Assembly (NCBI RefSeq): GCF_000426885.1
Contig: NZ_AUGF01000020.1
Location: forward strand, 1-49,230
Direction of reading: 5' to 3'
Origin: Moraxella caprae DSM 19149
Lineage (GTDB): Bacteria > Pseudomonadota > Gammaproteobacteria > Pseudomonadales > Moraxellaceae
Length of the DNA: 49,230 nt
Shown here: positions 28,324 through 40,044 of the stretch, piece by piece
How the letters are laid out: each line of letters opens with the position of its first letter
How positions within the stretch are numbered: the first letter of the stretch is position 1
Notes under the pieces: model-generated
Database searches by the model: none
Told to the model about the DNA's origin: nothing
Seen by the model: the letters and a program-made list of their open reading frames with translations, nothing else
Translations under genes and position numbers: made by a program

Positions 28324-29178
28324 ATGCTAAGATTGGCGATTTTTGCGGACATTCATGGCAAATTTTTATTACCCTTTAAATTGGTGGATTATTATCAAGC
28401 CCTGACAGGACAAGCGATTGATGCCATTATCCAATGTGGCGACATGGGAGTATTTCCTGAAAAAAACAACATGGATAAAGCGACATTAAGACACGCCAGA
28501 CATGACAGAGATGAGTTGGGTTTTATGGATAATTTTGTCAAAATGGATAGTGACATTGCCAAATTTTTAAATACGCTCAATATCCCCATGTATGCCGTGC
28601 GTGGCAATCACGAAGACCATGATTTTTTGGATAATTTAGAAAATAACAGCGATAAAAATTTGCCTTATTTTCATATTGATTGTTATCAAAAAATTCGGGT
28701 ATTAAAAACAGGCTTTCCACTCATATTAACCAATGACGCCGACAGCATTAGCCTATTGGGCATTGGGCGAATTGGCGATAGAAAAGGGCGAGAGCATAAA
28801 ACGTTTATCCAAAACTATGAACGAGAACAATTAAAAAAGCTCTATAAAACCTGTGGCGACATGGATATTTTAATCACTCATGACAAACCAATCGAAAGTA
28901 TTCGTGGTTATGGTTCATCTGACGTGGCAGACGCATTGGATAATATCGCTTTTTGTTATCATTTTTATGGGCATACGGGCGAGCCTTATCATGAAACACT
29001 TGCTGATAATGGCATTACCCAATCGGTAAAAATCAAAGAATTGGAATTTAATCAAAAAGGCAAATTAGAAACAGGCTCTATGATAATTTTAGAAAAAGAC
29101 AAAGACAATATCAGCATAAAAAGCGTGCCATTATTTGACATTATTCATTTTGATAAAGAAAGTTGGCGATATGTATGA
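28324..29178 (+). CDS. Calcineurin-like metallophosphoesterase
   Basis: This is a 284-residue cytosolic phosphoesterase. The metal-binding motifs are all present: DIH (Asp9, His11), GD (39-40), GNHE (94-97), 'ILITHDKP' and 'YGHTGEPYH'. They are in the order of the calcineurin superfamily. It follows the class IV aminotransferase-like gene by one base. An rtcB RNA ligase gene lies downstream on the same strand, beyond a separate transcription unit. RNA end processing is a possible role, but the sequence itself shows only a generic phosphoesterase. Confidence 0.82.
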   Translation: MLRLAIFADIHGKFLLPFKLVDYYQALTGQAIDAIIQCGDMGVFPEKNNMDKATLRHARHDRDELGFMDNFVKMDSDIAKFLNTLNIPMYAVRGNHEDHDFLDNLENNSDKNLPYFHIDCYQKIRVLKTGFPLILTNDADSISLLGIGRIGDRKGREHKTFIQNYEREQLKKLYKTCGDMDILITHDKPIESIRGYGSSDVADALDNIAFCYHFYGHTGEPYHETLADNGITQSVKIKELEFNQKGKLETGSMIILEKDKDNISIKSVPLFDIIHFDKESWRYV

Positions 29179-29214
29179 CTGTTTGGGATTTTTATAAAAA
29201 TTTTTAAAAACCCC

Positions 29215-29242
29215 TTGACTTTTTATTTTTATCGCTTATCAT
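29215..29242 (+). promoter_or_regulatory. Strong sigma70-type promoter of a short transcription unit
   Basis: TTGACT (29215-29220), a 16-base T-rich spacer, then TATCAT (29237-29242). It lies 68 bases before a 25-codon reading frame. Confidence 0.7.
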
Positions 29243-29248
29243 ATACGC

Positions 29249-29456
29249 ATTCACGCACCAAATACGCTTGGTGTATTTCATTCACCCAAACAGCAATAGG
29301 AGTAAAACAATGTCTGTATCTTACAATCTTTGTAATTCAAAAAAGACCAGCCGTTTTGACTGTTTGGGCAAATCATTTTTGATATAAGCCTTATATCAAG
29401 CCAAACACATAAAGACGGTGGCAAGCCTTAATCTACAAGGCTTTCACCGTTTTTTA
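29249..29456 (+). ncRNA. Candidate short structured RNA with an internal small reading frame
   Basis: The ~205-base unit starts after a promoter, has a 5' hairpin (CACCAA/TTGGTG region), and has a well-placed AGGAG. A 25-codon frame follows, then a palindrome (TTGATATAAG/CTTATATCAA) over its stop codon and a strong terminator. It may be a regulatory RNA, a small-protein mRNA, or both. The promoter-terminator pair is seen directly; transcription is inferred. Confidence 0.5.
29310..29387 (+). CDS. Possible 25-residue small protein
   Basis: ATG 29310 is preceded by AGGAG (29298-29302) with a seven-base spacing, an unusually good initiation site for this window. The predicted peptide begins MSVSYNLCNSKK and ends DCLGKSFLI. 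It has two cysteines and no membrane segment. I do not recognise it. It could be a leader peptide or a real small protein. Confidence 0.4.
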   Translation: MSVSYNLCNSKKTSRFDCLGKSFLI

Positions 29457-29457
29457 T
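29413..29457 (+). terminator. Strong rho-independent terminator
   Basis: The stem ACGGTG-AAGCCTT pairs with AAGGCTT-CACCGT, with a small internal bulge and the loop AATCTAC, and is followed by six T residues. It closes the short transcription unit. Confidence 0.88.
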
Positions 29458-29497
29458 TGTCTAAAATTTGCCCAAAAAATCGCTAAGATTTGTCTTA

Positions 29498-29525
29498 AAA
29501 ATTGATAAACTGCTTTATCAATTTT
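29498..29525. other. Perfect 12-bp inverted repeat
   Basis: AAAATTGATAAA (29498-29509), loop CTGC, TTTATCAATTTT (29514-29525). It could be a second hairpin or an operator. The rest of the gap 29458-29868 holds only the family C repeat and no gene that I can see. Confidence 0.5.
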
Positions 29526-29684
29526 GACGGTTTTCTTTTCCAAAAATATTGTCTTTTATTTGTCATTTTTATATTTAAAAATGATTGGGGAAGGATTGTC
29601 TTTTTAATCTGTGTTTACTTAATTAGCTAAAAATTGAATGATTTTTGGTTGGGGTTTTTATATCAAAAATTTGGTTTTTTTTAA

Positions 29685-29835
29685 ATACACCTAATGAAAT
29701 TAATATTTATCACAGGCTTTGTAGGGGCGTGTTGCACACACCCTTGATGATATAATGATTTTATTGGATGTGCAGAGCCAGTCCCTATACCTACATATCA
29801 TAAATTTGTGGTAATTTTAATGTTTCTTTATCTAA
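29685..29835 (-). repeat. Dispersed palindromic repeat (family C), diverged copy
   Basis: It starts ATACACCTAATGAAATTAAT, includes TTTGTAGGGGCGTG, and ends near AATGTTTCTTTAT. It has the same orientation as the copy at 26764-26912 but is more decayed, with the internal palindromes partly lost. Confidence 0.65.
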
Positions 29836-29868
29836 ACCCCCAAACCAACTCAAAAGAGAAATAATTTT

Positions 29869-31083
29869 ATGAGTATCGGACTTATTTTAAATGAAAATGG
29901 CAACAATGGCGTGCCTGTCAAAATCTTTACCAAAGACGTGGAGCAAAAGGCGTTAAATCAGCTCTACGCGATGAGCCAGCTACAATTTATCCATAGCCAT
30001 ATCGCCGTCATGCCTGACGTTCATGCGGGCAAGGGGGCGACTGTGGGGAGCGTGATTCCGACCAAATCGGCAATCATTCCGTCTGCGGTGGGCGTGGATA
30101 TTGGTTGTGGTATGAACGCCCTACGCCTGTCTATCAAGGCAGGGCAGTTGCCCGACAACCTAAAGCCTGCCCGCCTTGCCATTGAAAAACACGTTCCTGT
30201 CGGCTTTGAAAAGCACAAGCAAATCATGGCAAAAATGAGTACGCTTGACCCGCTTGCCATTCGTCTCAAAAAAATTACCGACAAGCACAAGGGCTTGTTA
30301 AAAATGATGAGTAACTTTGACAGAACGTGGGCAAAACAGCTTGGCACGTTGGGCGGTGGCAATCACTTTATTGAGCTGTGCGTGGACGAGAATGATGACG
30401 TATGGATTATGCTTCACTCTGGTTCTCGTGGGATTGGCTCGTGTATTGGCGAGTATTTTATTAGCCTTGCCAAAAAGGTGAATGAGACGTGTTTTGGTTA
30501 TATTCCTGACCGTGAGCTGTCGTATTTGGCACAGGGTACGCCGTTTTTTGACAATTATATTGAGGCGGTGGGCTGGGCTCAGGACTATGCGACCGAAAAC
30601 CGCCGTGAGATGATGAGACTCATTATCAAAGCCTTACAAAGCAAAGACGCACAATTTCCCCGCTTTACCGTAACCAAAGAGGCGATAAACTGTCATCACA
30701 ACTATGTGAGCCGTGAGACGCATTTTGGCAGTTCGGTCTATGTAACTCGCAAGGGAGCGATTAGTGCCTATGAGGGCGAGCTTGGCATTATCCCCGGCTC
30801 TATGGGGGCGAAATCCTATATCGTGCGTGGGCGTGGCAATAGCGAGAGTTTTTGTTCGTGTTCGCATGGGGCAGGGCGTAGGCTAAGCCGTGGGCGTGCG
30901 GTGCGTGAGTTTGGCTTGGCGGATTTGGTCGCTCAGACGGACGGTATCGAATGCCGTAAAGATAAGGGCGTGCTGGACGAGATTCCACAGGCGTATAAAG
31001 ATATTGATGAGGTCATGGCAAACCAAACCGATTTGGTGGAGGTGGTGCATACCTTAAAACAGGTGATGTGTATTAAGGGGTGA
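29869..31083 (+). CDS. rtcB: RNA-splicing ligase RtcB
   Basis: RtcB joins RNA ends bearing 2',3'-cyclic phosphate or 3'-phosphate to 5'-OH, using GTP and Mn2+. The protein has 'VMPDVHAGKGATVGSVIPT', 'GVDIGCGMNALRL' (metal cysteine), 'LGTLGGGNHFIELC', 'HSGSRGIG', 'NCHHNY' and the guanylylated-histidine region 'CSCSHGAGRRLSRG'. It has 404 residues, the short bacterial form. No rtcA or rtcR is seen. ATG 29869 has AGAGAAATA upstream. Confidence 0.94.
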   Translation: MSIGLILNENGNNGVPVKIFTKDVEQKALNQLYAMSQLQFIHSHIAVMPDVHAGKGATVGSVIPTKSAIIPSAVGVDIGCGMNALRLSIKAGQLPDNLKPARLAIEKHVPVGFEKHKQIMAKMSTLDPLAIRLKKITDKHKGLLKMMSNFDRTWAKQLGTLGGGNHFIELCVDENDDVWIMLHSGSRGIGSCIGEYFISLAKKVNETCFGYIPDRELSYLAQGTPFFDNYIEAVGWAQDYATENRREMMRLIIKALQSKDAQFPRFTVTKEAINCHHNYVSRETHFGSSVYVTRKGAISAYEGELGIIPGSMGAKSYIVRGRGNSESFCSCSHGAGRRLSRGRAVREFGLADLVAQTDGIECRKDKGVLDEIPQAYKDIDEVMANQTDLVEVVHTLKQVMCIKG

Positions 31084-31120
31084 TGAATGATTTTTTATTT
31101 GTCATTTTGGAAAATAAGTG

Positions 31121-31143
31121 CAGGGCAAATTACATTTGCCCTG
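31121..31143. terminator. Hairpin after rtcB
   Basis: CAGGGCAAA and TTTGCCCTG form a perfect nine-base-pair stem with the loop TTACA. There is no clear T-run, so it could be a weak terminator or an mRNA-stabilising hairpin. A related sequence lies at 114-131 before folB. Confidence 0.5.
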
Positions 31144-31233
31144 TGTTAAATTTGGATTTTGGGGCGAATAAATTACCCTTATACGTCCAAATTCTAAAAT
31201 ATATTTTGATTTAATCCAACATGGGAAAATAAC

Positions 31234-31449
31234 ATGAAAAATCAAAAAGAGCTTATCAAACTTGGCGAAAAATTGGCAAATCACCCAATTTACCCAAGTG
31301 CGATTAAAGTACGCAACCAAACCGCCTTAAACCCTTTATTAAAAAAGGGTGGTGTTCATGATAAAGACAACCCCAAAACACGCCATAAAAAAGAGCGTGC
31401 CAAAATACGTTTGCACCTAAAACATAAGGGGTATGACAACAATTTTTAA
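31234..31449 (+). CDS. Small, very basic conserved-looking protein
   Basis: This 71-residue protein has a strongly positive C-terminal half ('LLKKGGVHDKDNPKTRHKK' followed by 'ERAKIRLHLKHKG'), suggesting binding to nucleic acid or ribosomes. The N-terminal part is 'MKNQKELIKLGEKLANHPIYP'. I do not recognise the family with certainty; it does not match ArfA well. ATG follows 'ATGGGAAAATAAC'. It sits between rtcB and the Hvf-type operon. Confidence 0.6.
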   Translation: MKNQKELIKLGEKLANHPIYPSAIKVRNQTALNPLLKKGGVHDKDNPKTRHKKERAKIRLHLKHKGYDNNF

Positions 31450-31466
31450 AAATTTTTCAAATTTTT

Positions 31467-31494
31467 TGTAAGATATTTGCCCCACGTCCGTCTA
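31467..31494 (+). promoter_or_regulatory. Candidate ECF-sigma promoter before hvfA
   Basis: TGTAAG (31467-31472), 16 bases, CGTCTA (31489-31494). The bipartite form with a CGTC-type -10 is characteristic of many ECF sigma factors and unlike the sigma70 promoters elsewhere in this window. An ECF-type sigma gene lies in the same operon (36531-37118). Confidence 0.5.
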
Positions 31495-31538
31495 AGATAT
31501 ATCATAAAATGGTTTATGATGTTTAATTGGAGTTTATC

Positions 31539-31961
31539 ATGTCAAATCTTAACCGTAAAATCACAGGTCTTGCCGTAGCAACCCTACTTGCCACAGGACT
31601 TACTGCTTGTAAAGAAGAAAAGGTGGAAGCACAGCCCATGGAGAAAGGCTACCAAAATGCCGAGCCAGCTCAGCCTGCTACTGCCGAGCCTAACACCGCT
31701 ACCGCTACCAAAACTGCCGAAGGCAAATGCGGTGAGGGCAAATGTGGCGAAGCAGGGTGCAGTGCCACCATGACCGACAAATCAGCCGAAGGTAAATGTG
31801 GCGAAGGTAAATGCGGAGCCGAAGCAAAAGCAGGCGATAAAAGTGCTCATGCAGGTTGTGGAGCGAACACCGCTACTGCTACCGCCGACAAATCAGCAAC
31901 TGCCAGTTGTGGAGCAAGCACCAACAAAAACGCTAATGCCAGTTGTGGCGGTAACAAATAA
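31539..31961 (+). CDS. hvfA: HvfA-like RiPP precursor, Cys-rich EGKCG repeats
   Basis: This 140-residue precursor is exported. Residues 1-24 form a signal with a possible lipobox (LTAC, Cys24). A Pro/Ala/Thr spacer follows, then EGKCGEGKCG at 61-70 with EAGC (71-74), and a second EGKCGEGKCG at 84-93. Looser HAGC, TASC and NASC sites follow at Cys107, Cys124 and Cys136. In Haemophilus influenzae HvfA, cysteines of EGKCG motifs are converted by a DUF692/DUF2063 enzyme pair to Cu(I)-binding groups. I start at ATG 31539, with GGAG six bases ahead. The downstream genes supply HvfB, HvfC and HvfD, which makes the call firm. Confidence 0.9.
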   Translation: MSNLNRKITGLAVATLLATGLTACKEEKVEAQPMEKGYQNAEPAQPATAEPNTATATKTAEGKCGEGKCGEAGCSATMTDKSAEGKCGEGKCGAEAKAGDKSAHAGCGANTATATADKSATASCGASTNKNANASCGGNK

Positions 31962-32052
31962 ATAGCGGTTTAGGCTTGCATGACAGGGTTTTGGGAATTT
32001 TTCACAACCTTGTTATACACTAATGATTTTGGCAAATAAATTGGAGAAAAAG

Positions 32053-33369
32053 ATGATACAAACCAAAAACTTAATCATCGGCTTTGGTAAAGCAGGCAAA
32101 ACGCTGGCAGGGCTGTTTGACAAACAGGGCGAGCGTACCATTTTGGTTGAGCAATCGGACAAAATGTATGGCGGAACGTGTATTAACGTGGGCTGTATTC
32201 CGTCAAAAAAACTGATTCATGAAGCCAAAACAGACAGTTTTGCCGTTGCCATGCAGGACAAGGACAAACTCATCTCTGCCTTGCGTGAAGCTAATTTTAA
32301 CAAAATCAATGATTTGCCAAATGTGACCGTCATCAATGCACAAGCGAGCTTTGTTGATGATAACACTGTTGCCCTATCCACAGGCGAGACGGTGCGTGCC
32401 GAGCGGATTTTTATCAACACGGGCACGACCCCCATTATGCCACCGATTGCAGGCGTGGACGGCGAGCGTGTTTATGACAGCACGGGGCTTTTAAACTTAG
32501 GCGACAGCCAAGCGACCGCCCCCAAGCGACTGGTTATCGTGGGTGCAGGCTTTATCGCCCTTGAATTTGCCTTTATGTATCACGCTTTTGGCAGTCAAGT
32601 GAGCATTGTTGAAAAATTTGACAGCTTTTTGCCAAACGTTGATGATGATGTGCGTGCGATTGTGCTTGACCTATTAAATGAGCGTGGCATTACGGTGCAT
32701 TTAGGGCAAGATGTCCAAGAATTTAAACACCTAACAGAGCATACCCAAGTCATCACCGATAAGATGACCCTTGACGCTGATGCTGTGCTTGTCGCCATTG
32801 GCAGACGACCTAACACAGATGGTCTAAACCTACAAAACACAAGCGTACAGCTAAGCGAGCGTGGCTATGTGGTGTGCGATGACAAACTAAAAGCCACCGA
32901 CCACATTTGGGCGATGGGCGATGTCGCAGGTTCACCGCAGTTTACCTACATCTCGCTTGATGATTATCGCATTGTGGCGGATGATTTGTTTGGGAACGGC
33001 ACACGCCACAGAGCCGACCGCCACACCTTCCCAACGAGTGTTTTTATCACACCGCCTTTATCACAAATTGGCCTGAGCGAAAAACAAGCCAAAGACAGTG
33101 GCAAAAATTACCAAGTGGCAACCTTGCCCGCCCAAGCCATTGTCAAAGCCAAAATCACAGGCAATACCAAAGGCTTATTAAAAGCGATTGTGGATAAAGA
33201 CAATAACGAGATTTTGGGCGTTACGTTGTTTTGTGAAAATAGCCATGAGATTATCAATTTATTTAAATTGGCAATGGATAATGGCGTTAAAGCGGATTAT
33301 TTTAAAGAGCAAATTTTTACGCACCCAACCATTAGCGAATCATTAAATGATTTATTTGCCAAATTTTAA
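32053..33369 (+). CDS. rclA: RclA-like flavoprotein disulfide/copper reductase
   Basis: This 438-residue FAD- and NAD(P)H-dependent class I disulfide oxidoreductase closely resembles E. coli RclA: 'IIGFGKAGKTLAG', the redox pair in 'GGTCINVGCIPSK', 'INTGTTPIMPPIAG', 'YDSTGLLNL', 'IWAMGDVAGSPQFTYISLDDYRI' and the C-terminal 'QIFTHPTISESLNDLF'. RclA protects against hypochlorous acid and reduces Cu(II). I start at ATG 32053 (GGAG with six-base spacing) rather than 32023. It lies 91 bases after hvfA and in the same direction, so it is part of the same operon or readthrough unit. Confidence 0.9.
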   Translation: MIQTKNLIIGFGKAGKTLAGLFDKQGERTILVEQSDKMYGGTCINVGCIPSKKLIHEAKTDSFAVAMQDKDKLISALREANFNKINDLPNVTVINAQASFVDDNTVALSTGETVRAERIFINTGTTPIMPPIAGVDGERVYDSTGLLNLGDSQATAPKRLVIVGAGFIALEFAFMYHAFGSQVSIVEKFDSFLPNVDDDVRAIVLDLLNERGITVHLGQDVQEFKHLTEHTQVITDKMTLDADAVLVAIGRRPNTDGLNLQNTSVQLSERGYVVCDDKLKATDHIWAMGDVAGSPQFTYISLDDYRIVADDLFGNGTRHRADRHTFPTSVFITPPLSQIGLSEKQAKDSGKNYQVATLPAQAIVKAKITGNTKGLLKAIVDKDNNEILGVTLFCENSHEIINLFKLAMDNGVKADYFKEQIFTHPTISESLNDLFAKF

Positions 33370-33413
33370 TTGTTTTTAAATAAATTTAATTGGTGTAATT
33401 TAGAAGGTGTCTT

Positions 33414-33803
33414 ATGAAAAAACTCACTCTTGCCATTGCAATTAGCATTTTGGGATTAACTGCGTGTAACAGTTTTGCCAATACCTCATCAAAACAAAAC
33501 AATGCCAAATCTCAAACCCAAACTCAATCACAAATCAAACCAAAAGCAAAAGGCGTTTGGATTGATGTGCGTAGCCCAGAAGAGTATCAAGCAGGGCATT
33601 TGTCAAATAGCATAAATATCCCTGTTGGCGATATTGCATCAAAGATTTCTGCCATTGAACCCAATAAAGACAACCCTATCAATCTGTATTGCCGTAGTGG
33701 TAGACGTGCCGAAGTTGCTCGCACAGAACTCTTAAAATTGGGCTATACCAATGTTACCAATCACGGCGGTTATGAAGACCTAAAACAACAAGGCTATCGT
33801 TAA
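33414..33803 (+). CDS. Periplasmic rhodanese-like lipoprotein
   Basis: This 129-residue protein has a lipoprotein signal ('LGLTACNS', Cys18), a Q/K-rich spacer and one rhodanese domain (about residues 45-127). 'WIDVRSPEEYQAGHLSNSINIP' and the active-site loop CRSGRR are present, so the catalytic cysteine is intact. Rhodaneses transfer sulfane sulfur. Being extracytoplasmic beside a Cys-modified peptide, it may supply or remove sulfur or repair oxidised thiols; this is inference. The next gene follows after ten bases. Confidence 0.85.
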   Translation: MKKLTLAIAISILGLTACNSFANTSSKQNNAKSQTQTQSQIKPKAKGVWIDVRSPEEYQAGHLSNSINIPVGDIASKISAIEPNKDNPINLYCRSGRRAEVARTELLKLGYTNVTNHGGYEDLKQQGYR

Positions 33804-33813
33804 GAAGTGTTTT

Positions 33814-34014
33814 ATGAAAATCAATGTTGGTAAACCTGATAAAATTGTACGAATTATTTTGGGTGTTGTTATTATTGGCTTGGGTGTTTATTTTGGTTCG
33901 TGGTGGGGAATTGTTGGGCTTGTACTGTTATTAACAGGCTTTATGAATTTTTGCCCCATTTATCATATTTTGGGCATCAGCACTTGCAAATGCCATGTTG
34001 ATAACAAACCCTAA
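33814..34014 (+). CDS. DUF2892 small membrane protein
   Basis: This 66-residue protein has two hydrophobic helices separated by 'FGSWWG' and a C-terminal 'FCPIYHILGISTCKCH' with three cysteines. It matches the DUF2892 domain, which is fused to rhodanese in E. coli YgaP; here the two parts are separate adjacent genes. A membrane thiol-relay with the rhodanese is plausible. The sequence alone does not show the partner. Confidence 0.82.
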   Translation: MKINVGKPDKIVRIILGVVIIGLGVYFGSWWGIVGLVLLLTGFMNFCPIYHILGISTCKCHVDNKP

Positions 34015-34030
34015 TAATTAGGAAAATGAC

Positions 34031-34939
34031 ATGATAAATAAAAGACCATTACACGGGGCAGGGCTTGGCTTTCGCCGTGAGTTATTGCCACAAATGTCTC
34101 TTGATGATGCCAATGCCATTCATCAATTAAGCCAGATTGATTTTTTTGAAGTGTCGCCTGAAAATTGGATAAACTCCCACGGAATTATGGGCGGACGTTT
34201 TGAAAATATCTTGCGTGCTTATAGCGAGCGGTTTTCTTTTATTTGTCATGGACTTTCTTTGTCTATTGGCAGTTCAAAAGAATTGGACGTGGCTCATGTA
34301 AATAATATTAAGCATTTTATGAAGTCGCATAACATCAATTTATTTACCGAGCATTTGTCTTGGTGTAGTGATGACAAAGGGCATTTGTATGATTTATTGC
34401 CCATTCCTTGCACCGAAGAAGCGGTATTTTGGGTTGCCGAGCGTATTAAAAAAGTACAAGATATTTTAGGCTCTCAAATTGGCATTGAAAACGCCTCATA
34501 TTATTATCTACCGCCCCAAAGCCAAATGTCCGACAGTGAATTTATTTCTGCGGTGGTAAAAGAAGCTGATTGTTTATTGCATTTAGATGTGAATAATATT
34601 TTTGTCAATAGCCAAAACTTTGGTTTTGATCCACACCAATATTTGCGTGAATTGCCGCTCGAGCGGACGTGTTATTTGCACGTTGCTGGGCATTATGTGG
34701 ATGATGACGGCTTGATTGTGGATACGCATGGCGATAGTGTGGTGGAGCGTGTTTGGGCGTTATTAAATGACGCTTATGGTTTGATATTTGCCAAAACAGG
34801 TAAAGCGGCAGATAAGATTCCGACTTGTTTGGAGCGTGATTTTAATTTCCCAGAACTTAGCGAGCTTACCCGTGAAGTTAAATTCATTCGGGAAATTCAA
34901 GAACGCCATAAAAATAATTCTACATTTAAATTGGCTTAA
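34031..34939 (+). CDS. hvfB: DUF692 multinuclear iron-dependent oxidase HvfB
   Basis: HvfB is the maturase of the RiPP. The TIM-barrel metal ligands of the MNIO family are visible: Glu40, His73 (FICHGLSLSIG), Glu107-His108 (FTEHLSW), Glu153-Asn154 (GIENASYY), Asp186 (LHLDVNNIFVN), His217 and His221 (HVAGHY) and Asp231/His233 (DTHGDSV). Family members (MbnB, TglH, ChrH, HvfB) use iron and O2 to rewrite cysteines in a precursor. The product has 302 residues. It sits between the DUF2892 gene and hvfC; the precursor lies four genes upstream rather than adjacent, which is unusual. Confidence 0.93.
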   Translation: MINKRPLHGAGLGFRRELLPQMSLDDANAIHQLSQIDFFEVSPENWINSHGIMGGRFENILRAYSERFSFICHGLSLSIGSSKELDVAHVNNIKHFMKSHNINLFTEHLSWCSDDKGHLYDLLPIPCTEEAVFWVAERIKKVQDILGSQIGIENASYYYLPPQSQMSDSEFISAVVKEADCLLHLDVNNIFVNSQNFGFDPHQYLRELPLERTCYLHVAGHYVDDDGLIVDTHGDSVVERVWALLNDAYGLIFAKTGKAADKIPTCLERDFNFPELSELTREVKFIREIQERHKNNSTFKLA

Positions 34940-34974
34940 TTATTTTAATGATAATTTAATAAAATGGCATAACA

Positions 34975-35799
34975 ATGATGATTGATAAAGCACCCAAGTT
35001 ACGCATCTTTCATCGTGAATTTGGCGATTATATCCGCAAACAAAAACACGATAATACCGATACCGTGCCTGCTCGTGTGGGGCAATTATATCAAAATCTG
35101 ATTTATAATAATGTCTCTGGTTTTGTCAATCAATGCTTTCCCATTACTCGCAGTATTATTGAGACGCATTTTGGCATATTGGTTTGGCAAAATCTGATTA
35201 AAGATTTTTTAAAACATGGCGATATGGCAAGTCCGTATTTTAGTGAAATTACCGAGCAATTTGTCGGCTATTTGACCGATGATGTTTTGACAAAATTTGA
35301 TTTGCCCATTTATTTGTCCGAATTTGCTCATTATGAATGGGTGGAATTGTTTGTAGATAATCTACCGAACAATAATCCCAAGCCTATTTTAATGCATCAA
35401 AATACGCCCATTTTTATCAATCATACCGCCCAGATTTTATATTATGAATGGGCGGTGCAGGATATTAGCGTGGCATTTTCTCCCAGTCAAAAAAGCCCGA
35501 CTTTTTTGGTGGTGTATCGTAAAGTGGTGGACGGTACATTTAAAACGGCATTTATGACCATAAGCCAGCTTAGTTTTATCATACTAACCTTTATGCAAGA
35601 AAAGCAAAATGAAGAGGTATGTTATCAAAATACAAATGAGTTATTGGCAGAGCTACAACGCACCTTTGAATTAAATGATGAGATTTTTGATAATATCAAA
35701 ACTTCGTTTGATGATTTGGTCAATACAATGATTGATAATCAAATTTTTTATAACAGACTTCCTGCAAAACCCAAAAATAAGGAAAACCGTTCGTGGTGA
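34975..35799 (+). CDS. hvfC: DUF2063 partner protein HvfC, C-terminus altered by a MITE
   Basis: HvfC recruits the precursor to HvfB. It has the N-terminal DUF2063 helical domain ('LRIFHREFGDYIRKQ', 'RVGQLYQNLIYNNVSGFVNQCFPI') and a C-terminal alpha/beta domain. Codons 261-274 (RLPAKPKNKENRSW) lie wholly inside the inserted element at 35755-35878. Removing the element and one AAC target copy would give N260-Q-S-F-stop, a 263-residue protein. The core is intact, so function is probably kept. Confidence 0.9.
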   Translation: MMIDKAPKLRIFHREFGDYIRKQKHDNTDTVPARVGQLYQNLIYNNVSGFVNQCFPITRSIIETHFGILVWQNLIKDFLKHGDMASPYFSEITEQFVGYLTDDVLTKFDLPIYLSEFAHYEWVELFVDNLPNNNPKPILMHQNTPIFINHTAQILYYEWAVQDISVAFSPSQKSPTFLVVYRKVVDGTFKTAFMTISQLSFIILTFMQEKQNEEVCYQNTNELLAELQRTFELNDEIFDNIKTSFDDLVNTMIDNQIFYNRLPAKPKNKENRSW

Positions 35800-35878
35800 G
35801 CTTGTCGAACCATAACGGTTTTCCGCCACCCCTCAACAAGCTCGGGGCGAACGGAAAGCCTAGTTTTGCAGGAAGTCT
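35755..35878 (+). mobile_element. MITE of 124 bp, inserted in the 3' end of hvfC
   Basis: Terminal inverted repeats AGACTTCCTGCAAAAC (35755-35770) and GTTTTGCAGGAAGTCT (35863-35878) are perfect. AAC at 35752-35754 and at 35879-35881 is a three-base target duplication. The interior is a large REP-like palindrome. The left end is identical for 18 bases to the IS5-like element at 48969. Confidence 0.9.
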
Positions 35879-35910
35879 AACCAATCTTTTTAATAAAAAT
35901 AAGGTAAATT

Positions 35911-36543
35911 ATGATAAAAAAATACAGCACTTATTACAATAAATTTGTTGTAAATTTAAATAAATTGGACTTTTTGCCATTATTCGCCATTCGTCTTTAT
36001 CTTGCCCCTGTGTTTATTATGGCAGGGCTAACCAAATACCGTTCGTTTGATGATACGGCACAGTGGTTTGGTAATGCCGATTGGGGGCTTGGTTTGCCAT
36101 TTGCATCCTTTTGGGTGGCAATGGTGATTGTTGCTGAATTGATTGGTGGTGTGGCGTTATTACTCGGCGTGGCGACTCGTTTTTTTGGCGTGTTATTGGC
36201 AATCACAATGGCGGTTGCCATGCTTCTTGTGCATTTAAAAAACGGCTGGCACGCCATTACCCCAACCGACCCTGCGACCAATATCGCCCAATTATTTGGC
36301 GGATTGGGACAGGCAAGTTTGGATAATTCCATACAAGCGGGCGAGCGATTAAATAAAGCCCGTGAAATCTTACAAACGCATGGCAATTATGACTGGCTCA
36401 CCGAAACGGGTAATTTTGTGGTTTTAAATAATGGCATAGAATTTGGCATGACTTATTTTATCATGTTACTTGTGCTAATTATTTATGGAGCAGGGCGTTA
36501 TATAAGCATGGACTTTTGGATAAATAAAAAATGCACCAAATAG
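35911..36543 (+). CDS. hvfD: DoxX-family membrane protein HvfD
   Basis: This 210-residue inner-membrane protein has four hydrophobic segments (about residues 20-40, 65-90, 92-112 and 175-197). 'LYLAPVFIMAGLTKYRSFDD' and 'ELIGGVALLLGVATRFFGVLLAITMAVAMLLVHL' (quoted in part) are typical DoxX segments. The loop carries 'NGWHAITP'. DoxX proteins are routinely found in HvfABCD-type operons and may take part in electron flow or export. Its stop overlaps the sigma-factor start by 13 bases. Confidence 0.88.
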   Translation: MIKKYSTYYNKFVVNLNKLDFLPLFAIRLYLAPVFIMAGLTKYRSFDDTAQWFGNADWGLGLPFASFWVAMVIVAELIGGVALLLGVATRFFGVLLAITMAVAMLLVHLKNGWHAITPTDPATNIAQLFGGLGQASLDNSIQAGERLNKAREILQTHGNYDWLTETGNFVVLNNGIEFGMTYFIMLLVLIIYGAGRYISMDFWINKKCTK

Positions 36544-37118
36544 AATTACGCCAATTTGATAAAAAAAGCATGGACGAGATATATCAGTCCATGTTTGCTT
36601 TTGCGTATAACCAATTAAATCACGAACAGCACGCCGAAGATGTGGTGCAAGATGCCCTCTTAAATGCCTTAAAATACGCCGATAGTTTTCAAGGAAAGTC
36701 CGCCTTTAAAACATGGGTATTTGCCATTTTAAAAAATAAAATTGCCGACTTTATCCGCCAAAACAAACATTATGAAGTCATGAGCGACATGAGTGAAAAT
36801 AGCGATGAAGAGTTTTTGGCAATGCTGTTTGATGATATTGGGCATTGGCAAAACGGTTCATCGCCAAATGCCTTTGATAATCGCTGGGCAAGTCCGCATG
36901 AAACAGCTGAAAATGATGAATTTTGGCAAGTATTGGAACTTTGTTTGGAGAATCTGCCCAAAGAGCAGGCACAAGTTTTTTTGATGAAAGAATATATAGA
37001 ATTGGATAGTGATGAGATTTGTAAGAATTTAAATATCACTCGACAGAATTTATATGTGTTATTGCACAGAGCCAGATTAAGATTGCAAATGTGTTTGTCG
37101 GTAAAATGGTTTGTTTAG
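36531..37118 (+). CDS. ECF-type sigma-70 family sigma factor
   Basis: The 195-residue protein has region 2 ('YNQLNHEQHAEDVVQDALLNALKY', 'FQGKSAFKTWVFAILKNKIADFIRQ') and region 4 ('LENLPKEQAQVFLMKEYIELDSDEICKNLNITRQNLYVLLHRARLRLQ', quoted in part). There is no region 1 or 3, as in ECF factors. It is translationally coupled to hvfD and overlaps the region just before the anti-sigma gene. From memory, the meningococcal sigmaE-MseR module has the same neighbours. A self-regulated operon is likely, since a CGTCTA-type promoter precedes hvfA. Confidence 0.9.
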   Translation: MHQIELRQFDKKSMDEIYQSMFAFAYNQLNHEQHAEDVVQDALLNALKYADSFQGKSAFKTWVFAILKNKIADFIRQNKHYEVMSDMSENSDEEFLAMLFDDIGHWQNGSSPNAFDNRWASPHETAENDEFWQVLELCLENLPKEQAQVFLMKEYIELDSDEICKNLNITRQNLYVLLHRARLRLQMCLSVKWFV

Positions 37119-37129
37119 AGGGGGATACA

Positions 37130-37318
37130 ATGAAACAATTAAAGAATTGCCAAAAAATGACTGAACTTATGAGTCTGTCACAAGAAGAGCCATTGACTTT
37201 ATCTCAAAAAATGACGGTGAAATTTCATCTTTTGATGTGTCCTGAATGTCCTAGGTTTGATGATAATAATCGGGTGTTAAAAGAGATGATAAAACAGCAT
37301 AAAAATTTAAAGGGATGA
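37130..37318 (+). CDS. Small zinc-finger-type anti-sigma factor
   Basis: This 62-residue cytosolic protein has the zf-HC2/MseR pattern: Cys7 in 'NCQKMTELMSLSQEEPL', then 'KFHLLMCPECPRF' with His and two Cys for zinc. I start at ATG 37130, with GAGGGGG just ahead. Proteins of this kind bind the preceding sigma factor and release it under thiol or metal stress. The place directly behind the ECF gene supports this. No membrane segment is present, so sensing would be cytoplasmic. Confidence 0.85.
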   Translation: MKQLKNCQKMTELMSLSQEEPLTLSQKMTVKFHLLMCPECPRFDDNNRVLKEMIKQHKNLKG

Positions 37319-37333
37319 TTTTTGTTAAAGCGA

Positions 37334-38065
37334 TTAAAAAAGCTGATTTGACAACATCGTCCGCATGGGATTAAAACTTTTGCGATGTTCGGGCAATACC
37401 CCATGCTCATAAATGGCGGTGGTATGGGCTTTACTGGCATAGCCTTTGTGCTTGTCTAGTCCATAATCAGGATAAATCTTGGCATAGTCGCTTATGACGG
37501 TATCACGATGAACCTTGGCAAGGATACTAGCACAAGCGATAGACGTGTGAAGGCTGTCGCCCTTGATGAGCGTGTGAATGCACGGCTGAAAATCGGTAAA
37601 GTCATCGGACAGCGTGGGCGCAGCGTTGCCGTCTATCACGATGATAAGATTGTCGTTTTTGCCAATATCATTTAACGTTATCAAGTGTTCAATCGCCAAT
37701 CTCATGCCAAGTAAAGTCGCTTGATAAATGTCAATCGTATCAATCACATAAGCAGGAATGTCAATAATGACATAGCTTTGGCAGGTTTGCTTAATCGGGT
37801 CAAAGACCAAATTCCGCTTTTTTTCGGACAATTTTTTGCTGTCGTTGATAAGAGCAAGGGGCGTATTTGTCAGGTCAATTTGCCCAAATTCGCCCGTCGA
37901 ATCATTATCCAAAATCACCGCCCCAACGGTCATTTGCCCAAACAGTGAGCCCCGCCCCACTTCATCAATGCCGATGACAAAAGTGCGTGATGTGGGCTCG
38001 TGATTTTTGTGGGCGACAACGGTGCAAGTGTGGGCGTGCGTGTTTTGGGTGTGGGCTTTTATCAT
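37334..38065 (-). CDS. rnhB: Ribonuclease HII
   Basis: RnhB cuts RNA of RNA-DNA hybrids. 'VIGIDEVGRGSLFGQMTVGAVIL' holds the catalytic Asp34-Glu35; 'INDSKKLSEKKR' and 'DSLHTSIACASILAKVHRD' follow. The C-terminus 'YGLDKHKGYASKAHTTAIYEHGVLPEHRKSF' (quoted in part) is family-typical. The 243-residue form has a ~28-residue N-terminal extension rich in His and Thr. It is convergent with the anti-sigma gene only 15 bases away. Confidence 0.94.
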   Translation of the reverse strand: MIKAHTQNTHAHTCTVVAHKNHEPTSRTFVIGIDEVGRGSLFGQMTVGAVILDNDSTGEFGQIDLTNTPLALINDSKKLSEKKRNLVFDPIKQTCQSYVIIDIPAYVIDTIDIYQATLLGMRLAIEHLITLNDIGKNDNLIIVIDGNAAPTLSDDFTDFQPCIHTLIKGDSLHTSIACASILAKVHRDTVISDYAKIYPDYGLDKHKGYASKAHTTAIYEHGVLPEHRKSFNPMRTMLSNQLF

Positions 38066-38085
38066 GGTATTTTTAAAATTATAAA

Positions 38086-38123
38086 AACCGTTCGTGCTGA
38101 GCTTGTCGAAGCATGGCGGTTTT
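38086..38123. repeat. REP-like palindrome
   Basis: AAAACCG...CGGTTTT enclose the TTCGTGCTGAGCTTGTCGAAG core also found in the MITEs. It lies between mnmC and rnhB and could act as a hairpin terminator for mnmC on the minus strand. Confidence 0.6.
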
Positions 38124-38133
38124 TTGCGTAAAT

Positions 38134-40044
38134 TTATCTATTTTGGTCAATCGGTGTTTGCAGGCGTGGACGGTTTGGGTTTAATTTATCCAATAAAATA
38201 TGAGAGACAGGCAATGGCTCATCAAAAATCAACCCTGCCAAAATCTCACCACAAATCGGAGCAAAACTAAACCCCTTTGATCCCATGCCATAGACGGTGT
38301 ATAGTCCATGATTGCCCATTTTACCGCCAACTTGACCGCCTATTTCTCCGACTAGGGGGTGGTAATCAGGTGTTTGGGCTCGTATGCTTGCCCGTCCGTG
38401 CAAGTCCTTGATATTGATGTTTAACTCATCGGCAAGGCATGGTAAGCTCTGGCGAAGTTTATCCAAATTAAACTCATGCTCATCATCACGCACCGCCATG
38501 TCGGTATCGTTACGCACAAAACTTGCTCCCATTAAAAAGGTGGGCGTGCCGTCTTTATCAAAAGTGGCACAATAGCCGTCATATTTTATCGGGGTGGCAA
38601 GTTTGGCTTTTAACTTATCAGACATATGGCGAATATCAAGCCATGAGACTTGCCCACGGATTTTTCTGGGGTTAAATAATTCATCACTTAATAAATAACT
38701 TTCAAACCCTGCACAAATGACCATGATGTCGGCAGATAGCTCTCTATCGTCATTTTTTATCGTCCATGTGTTATTATCTTTTGTGATGTGTTTGGCATGA
38801 AACTGTTTAAATTGGATTAAAGGATTGGCTAAAATAAAATCCGCCAATTTGTGCGTATCAATTAGACCTGCTTTTGGCGTGTGGGTATTGATGAGTTGCT
38901 TATTAAAATCGGCATTGCGTGAATTAAGGTTTTTATTAAAAATGCCAATCAGTTCATCAGGATAGCTGTTTGCCAAATGGGCCAACTTTTCATGCGATTT
39001 TTGCGTGGGTAATAAAAAATCTATCGCCCCTGTTTGGGAGAATATCTCATCATTTGATGATTGATTAAACGCTTTGTAAATCCGCTCGGCATATAAAAAG
39101 CTGACGGTAGGCAGATGATTGGGAGCGTCTGATAATTGGGTGAGCTTAGGGGCGAATAAGGCTTTTGGGTTGCCTGATGCTCCTGATAATGGGGCGGTTT
39201 TGTCAATCAAAGTAACTTCTACGCCACGGCTTGCTAACGCATGAGCGGTAAAAAGTCCTGATACGCCAGCTCCGATGATGATGGCGGTTTTTGGGGTAGG
39301 TTTTGGCGTGGTCTTGGGTGTGGTCTTGCTGTCAAAAGTGGCGGTTATCATCTCACGCTTACGTCCAAAGCCCTTGATTTTTTGTACAGTCATGCCGATA
39401 GCGGTTAAGGCTCGTCTGACCGCCCCACTACTGGTAAAGGTGGCAAGGGTGGTGTTAGGTCTAGATAGGCGTTTGATTTGGTTAAAAATCTCGTCTGACC
39501 ACAACTCGCTGTTTTTGGTAGGGGCAAAACCGTCTAGAAACCAAGCATCCACAAGCCCATCACCCATTTTACAAAAACTATCCAACGCATCGCCTAGCCA
39601 TAAATCTAGCGTGATATTGCCAAAATGCAAGCGATGACACCCCGTTAAGGCAAGCGGATAATTATCCAGTAAATCCTTGATAAATGGAGCGGTTTGTTCG
39701 TCCTGCCACACCGCTAGGGCGGTGGTTAGGTCGGCATGAGAGAGCGGATATTTTTCGGTACTGACAAAGTACAGACGAGCGGACGGCGGGGCGGTTTGTT
39801 GCCAAAGTAGGCAGGTTGCCAAAAAGTTTAGCCCTGTGCCAAAGCCTGTCTCCATGATGACAAAATGCTCATGTTCGCCCAAATTGGCAAAGCGGTGGGG
39901 CAAATCATTGCCTTGCAAAAAGACATGATTGGTCTCATCAAATCCACCCGCTTTTGAAAAATAAATGTCGTCAAACTGCTCGGATGTGGGCGTGATGTTA
40001 CCCAAACTGTCGGTTTGCCATGTGATGTTTGCGGTCTGTATCAT
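38134..40044 (-). CDS. mnmC: Bifunctional tRNA mnm5s2U biosynthesis protein MnmC
   Basis: MnmC completes the wobble-uridine modification of certain tRNAs: its oxidase removes carboxymethyl to give nm5s2U, and its methyltransferase makes mnm5s2U. The N-terminal methyltransferase (about 1-245) opens 'ITWQTDSLGNITPTSEQFDDIYFS' (in part) and has 'VIMETGFGTGLNFL'. The FAD oxidase begins at about residue 255 with 'AIIIGAGVSGLFTAHAL' and ends with 'YTVYGMGSKGFSFAPICGEILAGL' (in part). The 636 residues are normal. Confidence 0.94.
   Translation of the reverse strand: MIQTANITWQTDSLGNITPTSEQFDDIYFSKAGGFDETNHVFLQGNDLPHRFANLGEHEHFVIMETGFGTGLNFLATCLLWQQTAPPSARLYFVSTEKYPLSHADLTTALAVWQDEQTAPFIKDLLDNYPLALTGCHRLHFGNITLDLWLGDALDSFCKMGDGLVDAWFLDGFAPTKNSELWSDEIFNQIKRLSRPNTTLATFTSSGAVRRALTAIGMTVQKIKGFGRKREMITATFDSKTTPKTTPKPTPKTAIIIGAGVSGLFTAHALASRGVEVTLIDKTAPLSGASGNPKALFAPKLTQLSDAPNHLPTVSFLYAERIYKAFNQSSNDEIFSQTGAIDFLLPTQKSHEKLAHLANSYPDELIGIFNKNLNSRNADFNKQLINTHTPKAGLIDTHKLADFILANPLIQFKQFHAKHITKDNNTWTIKNDDRELSADIMVICAGFESYLLSDELFNPRKIRGQVSWLDIRHMSDKLKAKLATPIKYDGYCATFDKDGTPTFLMGASFVRNDTDMAVRDDEHEFNLDKLRQSLPCLADELNINIKDLHGRASIRAQTPDYHPLVGEIGGQVGGKMGNHGLYTVYGMGSKGFSFAPICGEILAGLIFDEPLPVSHILLDKLNPNRPRLQTPIDQNR

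Follow-up and report, generated by a model that had tools for sequence, protein, structure and literature searches.

A probable sigmaE-type hvf operon of Moraxella caprae carrying an RclA-type reductase, a rhodanese and a YgaP-like protein

Why would the genes for a copper-binding modified peptide stand in one block with a flavoprotein reductase, a rhodanese and a small membrane protein? The question is raised by the window, a stretch of 49,230 nucleotides from Moraxella caprae DSM 19149 (contig NZ_AUGF01000020.1, positions 1 to 49,230), whose numbering is used for all positions here; the genome to which it belongs (2.6 Mb, 103 contigs) is called G000. Nine genes at 31539–37318, all on the + strand, code for HvfA, an RclA-like flavoprotein, a rhodanese, a YgaP-type DUF2892 protein, HvfB, HvfC, HvfX, an extracytoplasmic function (ECF) sigma factor and an anti-sigma factor; the same list, order and single direction had been given in an initial annotation and were confirmed. 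The block is probably a sigmaE operon of the HvfABCX (oxazolin/Buf_EGKCG) kind that regulates itself and to which, in a Moraxella lineage, an oxidant-reduction module was added. The core hvf set and the sigma pair are already known from other bacteria, while the reductase module and a lipid-anchored class of precursors look new.

Genes, promoter and known relatives

The precursor gene hvfA (31539..31961, 140 amino acids) encodes a lipobox signal (LTAC) and, besides the lipobox cysteine, eight others: four in EGKCG motifs, one in AGCS and three in A[GS]CG (AGCG/ASCG). Its signal sequence and four EGKCG motifs agree with the pattern looked for in HvfA, an export signal followed by at least two such motifs; it scores 43.1 bits with the KCGExKCG domain model NF050137 (cut-off 19.5) and 36.5 with the HvfA equivalog NF050188, below the cut-off of 95. 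Three genes separate it from its maturase, as had been noted earlier. The maturase hvfB (34031..34939) is of the MNIO type (PF05114, 299 bits; NF003818, 377.7, cut-off 360; PDB 3bww by profile), and its DUF2063 partner hvfC (34975..35799) also passes its model (NF050145, 164.3, cut-off 142). The DoxX-family membrane protein encoded at 35911..36543 (NF050144, 210.7, cut-off 80; PF07681) had been called hvfD and is now HvfX; with this change of name the assignment to an Hvf-type operon stands. At the end lie the ECF sigma factor (36531..37118; TIGR02943, 208, cut-off 162.2) and a 62-residue zinc-type (ZAS) anti-sigma factor (37130..37318; NF052368, 58.1, cut-off 50), which together form a sigmaE pair of the Neisseria type. 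The N-terminal cysteine and the H-x3-C-x2-C motif of the anti-sigma factor are invariant in 19 aligned rows (18 from Moraxellaceae and one from N. gonorrhoeae). With the preferred starts, the gaps are 91 bp (hvfA-rclA), 44 (rclA-rhodanese), 10 (rhodanese-ygaP), 16 (ygaP-hvfB), 35 (hvfB-hvfC), 111 (hvfC-hvfX), −13 (hvfX-sigma) and 11 (sigma-anti-sigma), so that the short gaps and overlaps described before are found at most junctions and fail at two, those of 91 and 111 bp.

The sigma pair had been regarded as an expansion of the hvf set, but this layout is not new. In N. meningitidis, NMB2140-NMB2145 form a single autoregulated operon whose last genes are rpoE and the anti-sigma gene mseR, the cysteines of MseR are required for its activity, and the promoter elements GTMAGBWTT and CGTCTAAH lie 12–13 nt apart (PMC2893595); the operon is also seen at the transcript level (PMC3240639). 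These genes and their gonococcal counterparts NGO1948-NGO1943 share with the window HvfX, precursor, HvfB, HvfC, sigma factor, zinc-type anti-sigma factor and promoter type, the single transcript being that of Neisseria. A gonococcal stretch annotated here has a promoter-like GTCAG-N-CGTCTAA followed by hvfX, precursor, hvfB, hvfC, sigma and anti-sigma genes; it differs in that hvfX comes first, the precursor (read by eye) has no lipobox, and rclA, rhodanese and ygaP are absent from the 8.8 kb scanned. Neisserial sigmaE also controls msrAB (PMC2893595). Two records filed as N. gonorrhoeae plasmids (NZ_CP119142.1 and NZ_CP119140.1, about 2.17 Mb) look, from their length, like chromosomes.

The core precursor and maturation proteins are likewise common to the window and to hvfABCX (oxazolin) of H. 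influenzae, where the genes are induced by hypochlorous acid (HOCl) in dependence on RpoE2, encoded at another locus (PMC7907618). There the sigma pair (RpoE2/HrsE) is unlinked to hvf and lies near msrAB, the precursor has three AEGKCGEGKCG motifs, and no reductase module is mentioned with the hvf genes in the portions of text available. The modification, previously given as oxazolone/thioamide, is now assigned as a copper-binding 5-thiooxazole, in the same work that gives HvfX its current name (PMC13419390). Survey clusters of the Buf_EGKCG/oxazolin kind also combine an EGKCG precursor, MNIO, DUF2063 and DoxX proteins, with oxidored_molybd and ferric reductase as the occasional extras in the part seen (PMC12452194).

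Upstream of hvfA, on the + strand at 31468..31495, lies a predicted sigmaE-type promoter (GTAAG-N16-CGTCTAA), close to where the initial annotation had set the start of the region (31467). It reads GTAAGATAT-N12-CGTCTAAG and, as a motif match to a neisserial consensus, agrees with 7 of 9 positions of the −35 element GTMAGBWTT and 7 of 8 of the −10 element CGTCTAAH at a spacing of 12. Such a motif precedes the first precursor in all 19 of the closest Moraxellaceae operons examined (the window and 18 others); these comprise every locus that reached 65% HvfB identity or more in a search of 299 family genomes, themselves a sample of a larger group. Several are nearly identical to one another, and the 19 occurrences are hence not independent. 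The motif was sought on account of the Neisseria consensus and the pattern used for the counts was fitted to these operons: as a strict regular expression it has 21 matches in 278,118 bases read on both strands, and 19 of these lie 41–232 bp upstream of a precursor open reading frame (ORF), and Markov-shuffled upstream regions contain it in a mean of 0.008 loci of 19.

Within G000 itself, the strict pattern occurs at 4 sites against 17 in a reversed control; after a check of the surrounding ORFs, the hvfA site alone is in a clear promoter position, one of the others lying more than 300 bp before doubtful ORFs and two inside ORFs. With fixed spacing the hvfA site is the sole exact match, and up to two mismatches are found at 31 sites against 85 in the control. 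A wide sigmaE regulon was rejected for this lack of enrichment; judged by the motif, the sigma factor may serve essentially one operon in this genome. The only fixed-spacing site with one mismatch (G000:C35:16102-16129; L175, L197), a chance-compatible match, lies about 250 bp before the likely start MNRITQILNIKHPIVQ. The gene that follows is presumably nitronate monooxygenase-like. Sigma gene and hvfB go together in the genus: a full-length HvfB is encoded in 10 of 22 genomes, each of which also has the sigma gene; in G014 the HvfB matches are two weak ones only (21–25% identity), and a sigma gene with no HvfB match is found in G013, on a contig that starts within hvfX, and in G021, where a stop codon interrupts the gene. 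The latter (G021:C17:46712-47265) is an apparent case of decay of the system.

Between hvfC and hvfX lies an inverted-repeat element of about 124 bp, resembling a miniature inverted-repeat transposable element (35755..35878; termini AGACTTCCTGCAAAAC) and inserted at the end of hvfC. It folds at −56.9 kcal/mol (z −7.35) and has at least 41 matches in its own genome (40 of 153 candidates scored), nearly all 95–100% identical; several contig ends of the assembly fall in copies of it. In G009 the same site is without the element, and comparison with this genome indicates that 3 bp of target were apparently duplicated in the window and that the last residues of hvfC are altered. Terminator-like sites number 8 in the region, with 6.9 expected, and the three on the + strand fall inside hvfC or hvfX. 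A scan of 29000–40000 with Rfam gave no families.

The inserted genes, a putative reductase module

Between hvfA and hvfB lie the three inserted genes. The first (32053..33369, 438 amino acids) had been called RclA-like; RclA is indeed its best model (NF040477, 544.9 bits), but the score is under the equivalog cut-off of 740, and NF041853 gives 498.3 (cut-off 650), so that by sequence the protein belongs, as a divergent member, to the RclA/Har/MerA group. Its alignment with PDB 6kgy, which we take to be E. coli RclA, spans most of the protein (E 1.9e-127) and keeps both redox cysteines of GGTCINxGCIP; the protein's GGTCINVGCIP and C-terminal FTHPTISESLNDLF (group motif THPxxSESLNDLF) both align with this structure. 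The cysteine pair and THPxxSESLNDLF are, we assume, the defining motifs of the group. The flavoprotein family and its redox cysteines are thus shared with E. coli rclABC and the Har/MerA reductases of hypothiocyanous acid (HOSCN); E. coli rclABC differs in having the regulator RclR and other partners, while the Moraxella gene stands behind a sigmaE-type promoter with a rhodanese. This PspE-like rhodanese (33414..33803; PF00581, 61.4 bits, cut-off 22.2) has a CRSGRR loop and scores 77.6 with the PspE equivalog NF007627, short of the cut-off of 102. Like HvfA it begins with a lipobox-type signal sequence (LTAC), and would therefore sit outside the cytoplasm. The third gene (33814..34014, 66 amino acids; PF11127, 81.1 bits, cut-off 25.3) encodes a YgaP-like transmembrane protein with DUF2892. 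YgaP is a rhodanese fused to a two-helix membrane domain; the same domains, PF00581 and PF11127, are here in two genes 10 bp apart, the rhodanese having its own lipobox signal.

The module is present between hvfA and hvfB in 6 of 10 operons of the genus (G000, G001, G004, G009, G011 and G016), with RclA identities of 76–99% to the window and with the promoter motif before the block. The comparison of synteny that had been proposed did not refute the linkage. The G010 operon has the rhodanese only, and those of G017, G003 and G007 have none of the three genes; none is found in seven operons of genus g9 (three named Psychrobacter) or in the first operon of M. boevrei, the second of which has ygaP only. 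The totals for the 19 operons are 6 for rclA, 7 for the rhodanese and 7 for ygaP. Outside the genus, 69 genomes had a match in the family search, from which 14 were fetched (15 stretches); six further family stretches (L163-L168) lack all three genes. So do 70 other loci (L084-L153) with no Moraxella or Psychrobacter in the title, many of them on short contigs with flanks of at most 7 kb; two matches there to the rclA model, of 16 and 19 bits, were taken as noise. The genomes sampled are only a part of the family. Among named genomes, for which the best 80 of 341 loci were used, the nearest loci are in Moraxella lacunata (HvfB 99%) and M. bovoculi (97%), in a search that may omit close relatives of the window's own record. 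The open-licence literature searched yielded no account of such an operon, and the word rhodanese does not occur in the main text of PMC12452194.

In a tree of the 19 operons (concatenated HvfB, HvfC and sigma factor, midpoint root) the six module-bearing operons split off with a support of 100 and G010 follows with 97. The simplest reading of the tree is a stepwise accretion with rclA coming last, ygaP then having been gained twice or lost. Nonsynonymous and synonymous divergence (dN/dS, NG86) between the window and G011 is 0.080/0.621 for rclA, 0.129/0.827 for the rhodanese and 0.093/0.399 for ygaP, and between the window and G016 it is 0.169/1.121, 0.375/1.457 and 0.101/0.859. These six ratios of 0.12–0.26 indicate purifying selection. 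In G016 all nine genes are intact, and rtcB, orf71, rnhB and mnmC, the flanking genes used as queries, were not found in its 13.5-kb stretch. Some operons show further variation: a DUF2798 gene (PF11391, 65.3 bits; L015:3918-4151, also in L014) stands between hvfA and rclA in G004, and G009 has a similar ORF at this place; the window has none. The second M. boevrei operon (L162), a case of two hvf operons in one genome, has a lipobox precursor (by eye), a ygaP that overlaps the start of the hvfB ORF, and no hvfX that could be found.

Relatives of the flavoprotein at E 1e-90 or better (at least 49% identity) are rare, with 13 of 199 family genomes, and four genomes of the genus have one of 50–60% identity away from the operon. 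Away from hvf loci, the gene immediately downstream of rclA is a rhodanese relative in G003, G008, G072 and M. boevrei G067; in G021 the two lie 2.7 kb apart, and in G019 and G167 no rhodanese relative is near rclA in the stretch fetched. That the pair also occurs separately elsewhere in the family makes a chance neighbourhood in the operon unlikely. A DUF302 gene precedes rclA in G003 (Pfam) and, by resemblance only, in G072 and G067, and in the latter two a GTAAGA-N-GTCTAA motif lies between this gene and rclA; its second half in G072 is also part of an inverted repeat (by eye), so the motif is suggestive only. G067 has two sigma genes of the sigmaE-operon family. In the RclA tree the operon copies group with the lone gene of G019, and a split with a support of 100 divides them from the remaining six separate genes, for which a common lineage of the operon rclA and the separate pairs was rejected; the rhodanese tree, with 83 columns, is too weak to decide its origin. 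When 369 sampled genomes of the class were searched for RclA-centred synteny, only G000 passed E 1e-90 (at most 4 candidates scored in the listed rows), a result that says nothing about synteny beyond the family.

Predicted lipid-anchored precursors

The lipobox of HvfA is a common feature among the Moraxellaceae operons tested. A lipoprotein-type signal is found in 15 of 23 precursor ORFs (window included), against 0 of 49 from the 70 other loci, where ORFs were picked by [EDAS][GA]KCG, read from the most upstream start, and tested with a custom regular expression, not a trained predictor. The test misses some precursors that are recognised by eye, among them those of the second operon of M. 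boevrei and the second precursor of L157. SCG/GCG/SCS-type motifs are also present in 13 of the 15 lipobox precursors (the window's counted by eye) and in 0 of 8 without a lipobox; the link is not general, since SCG motifs occur without a lipobox in the precursor of N. gonorrhoeae. In genus g9, a secreted precursor with KCG motifs only adjoins a lipobox precursor with mixed motifs in 5 of 7 operons (L154, L155, L156, L159 and L160), and the second, lipobox ORF seen by eye in L157 brings those with two precursors to six of seven. The number of KCG copies varies even between near-identical operons (HvfB 97–99%), from 2 in G001 and G004 to 4 in the window and 5 in G009, and the number of copper sites may thus change quickly. 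In the portion of the MNIO survey seen, the one mention of lipoprotein signals concerns about 16% of Buf2 (PMC12452194).

Tentatively, and with less assurance than for the operon itself, we suggest that Moraxellaceae have a membrane-anchored oxazolin class with a lipidated HvfA, mostly of mixed EGKCG and SCG/GCG motifs, to which Psychrobacter-like operons often add a secreted, EGKCG-only precursor. In the lineage of Moraxella lacunata this class would be coupled, under one sigmaE promoter, to a reductase for Cu(II) or HOSCN and a periplasmic rhodanese, so that a single circuit, triggered by oxidants, would answer both copper and (pseudo)hypohalous stress.

Proposed working and alternatives

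The most likely role of the operon is an oxidant-induced defence of the envelope, with Cu(I) sequestered outside and oxidants or Cu(II) reduced inside. By analogy with Neisseria and Haemophilus, HOCl or HOSCN, alone or together with copper, would attack the cysteine/zinc anti-sigma factor and thereby release the sigma factor, which would fire the predicted promoter before hvfA and raise the whole block, itself included, presumably as a single transcript. HvfB and HvfC, as their homology suggests, would turn cysteines of HvfA into Cu(I)-binding thiooxazoles, and the exported precursor, lipidated at its predicted lipobox, would be a copper sink fixed to the envelope and not free. In the cytosol the RclA-type enzyme may reduce HOSCN, Cu(II) to Cu(I), or both. 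E. coli RclA is reported as a Cu(II) reductase that protects against HOCl and intracellular copper (PMC7527725), and members of its family, E. coli RclA included, as HOSCN reductases (PMC12096828). In the least secure step, the lipoprotein rhodanese and the YgaP-type protein might work at the envelope, with sulfane sulfur or oxidised thiols as targets.

A number of observations weigh against this scheme. H2O2, diamide and singlet oxygen elicited no response from the sigmaE genes of the meningococcus (PMC2893595), and E. coli rcl deletions left periplasmic oxidation by HOSCN unchanged (PMC12096828). The flavoprotein is below the RclA cut-off. Unlike in Neisseria, no clear sigmaE motif was found in the 1.5 kb before either match to PMSR (msr; L064 and L065), L065 having one loose match far upstream. 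One operon of the 19 (L155) has no anti-sigma ORF that could be found; G072 has the motif before its separate rclA yet no detected sigma match, and G003 has a sigma gene without the motif before rclA. As to the single transcript, the hairpin element before hvfX could uncouple hvfX and the sigma and anti-sigma genes in this strain, and sigma-70-like consensus sites are more frequent in the region, on both strands, than in shuffles (32 against 19.0, standard deviation 4.3); internal sigma-70 promoters are conceivable, the matches being too unspecific to place one. Finally, the six module-bearing operons seem to descend from one insertion and so do not count as independent evidence.

This last point is also what favours the view that rclA, rhodanese and ygaP are passengers, inserted once and merely carried, with a promoter in common and a function unrelated to the copper peptide: a single insertion accounts for all six operons, and four genomes of the genus keep their rclA relative elsewhere. 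We consider it unlikely, since the gene order is intact in six of six although the flanks of G016 differ, the genes are under purifying selection, rhodanese alone (G010) and ygaP alone (second M. boevrei operon) also occur within hvf operons, and the unlinked rclA-rhodanese pair of M. boevrei has a similar promoter motif. A simpler doubt, that the genes are accidental neighbours in one strain, was rejected in view of the six operons, the selection on the genes and the separate rclA-rhodanese pairs.

The emphasis might also be reversed, with RclA, rhodanese and YgaP as the main workers of a hypothiocyanite or thiol-stress operon, copper being secondary and HvfA a sink for thiols or oxidants. 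The HOSCN reductase activity reported for the RclA family would suit this, as would the four non-EGKCG cysteine motifs that HvfA carries besides its four EGKCG; the complete HvfBC maturation set, whose H. influenzae product binds copper (PMC13419390), speaks against it and leaves it improbable. Acquisition of copper or scavenging of another metal, with the modified peptide delivering copper and not protecting from it, has in its favour that the maturase is in the family of the methanobactin enzyme MbnB (PF05114; PMC13419390). It appears very unlikely, as the predicted lipid anchor argues against a diffusible scavenger and Pfam gave no transporter among the ten proteins scanned (the block and its upstream neighbour).

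An operon of this kind bears on the biological job of Hvf/oxazolin peptides and would show which stresses evolution groups together. With peptide, RclA-type reductase and envelope rhodanese behind one sigma factor, the idea of a joint response to copper and hypochlorite becomes directly testable. The lipid-anchored precursor class, if true, would place the copper sink at a fixed site in the envelope instead of in solution, and the expanded operon suggests that in some Moraxella species several defences against copper and the oxidants of the immune system share a single switch.

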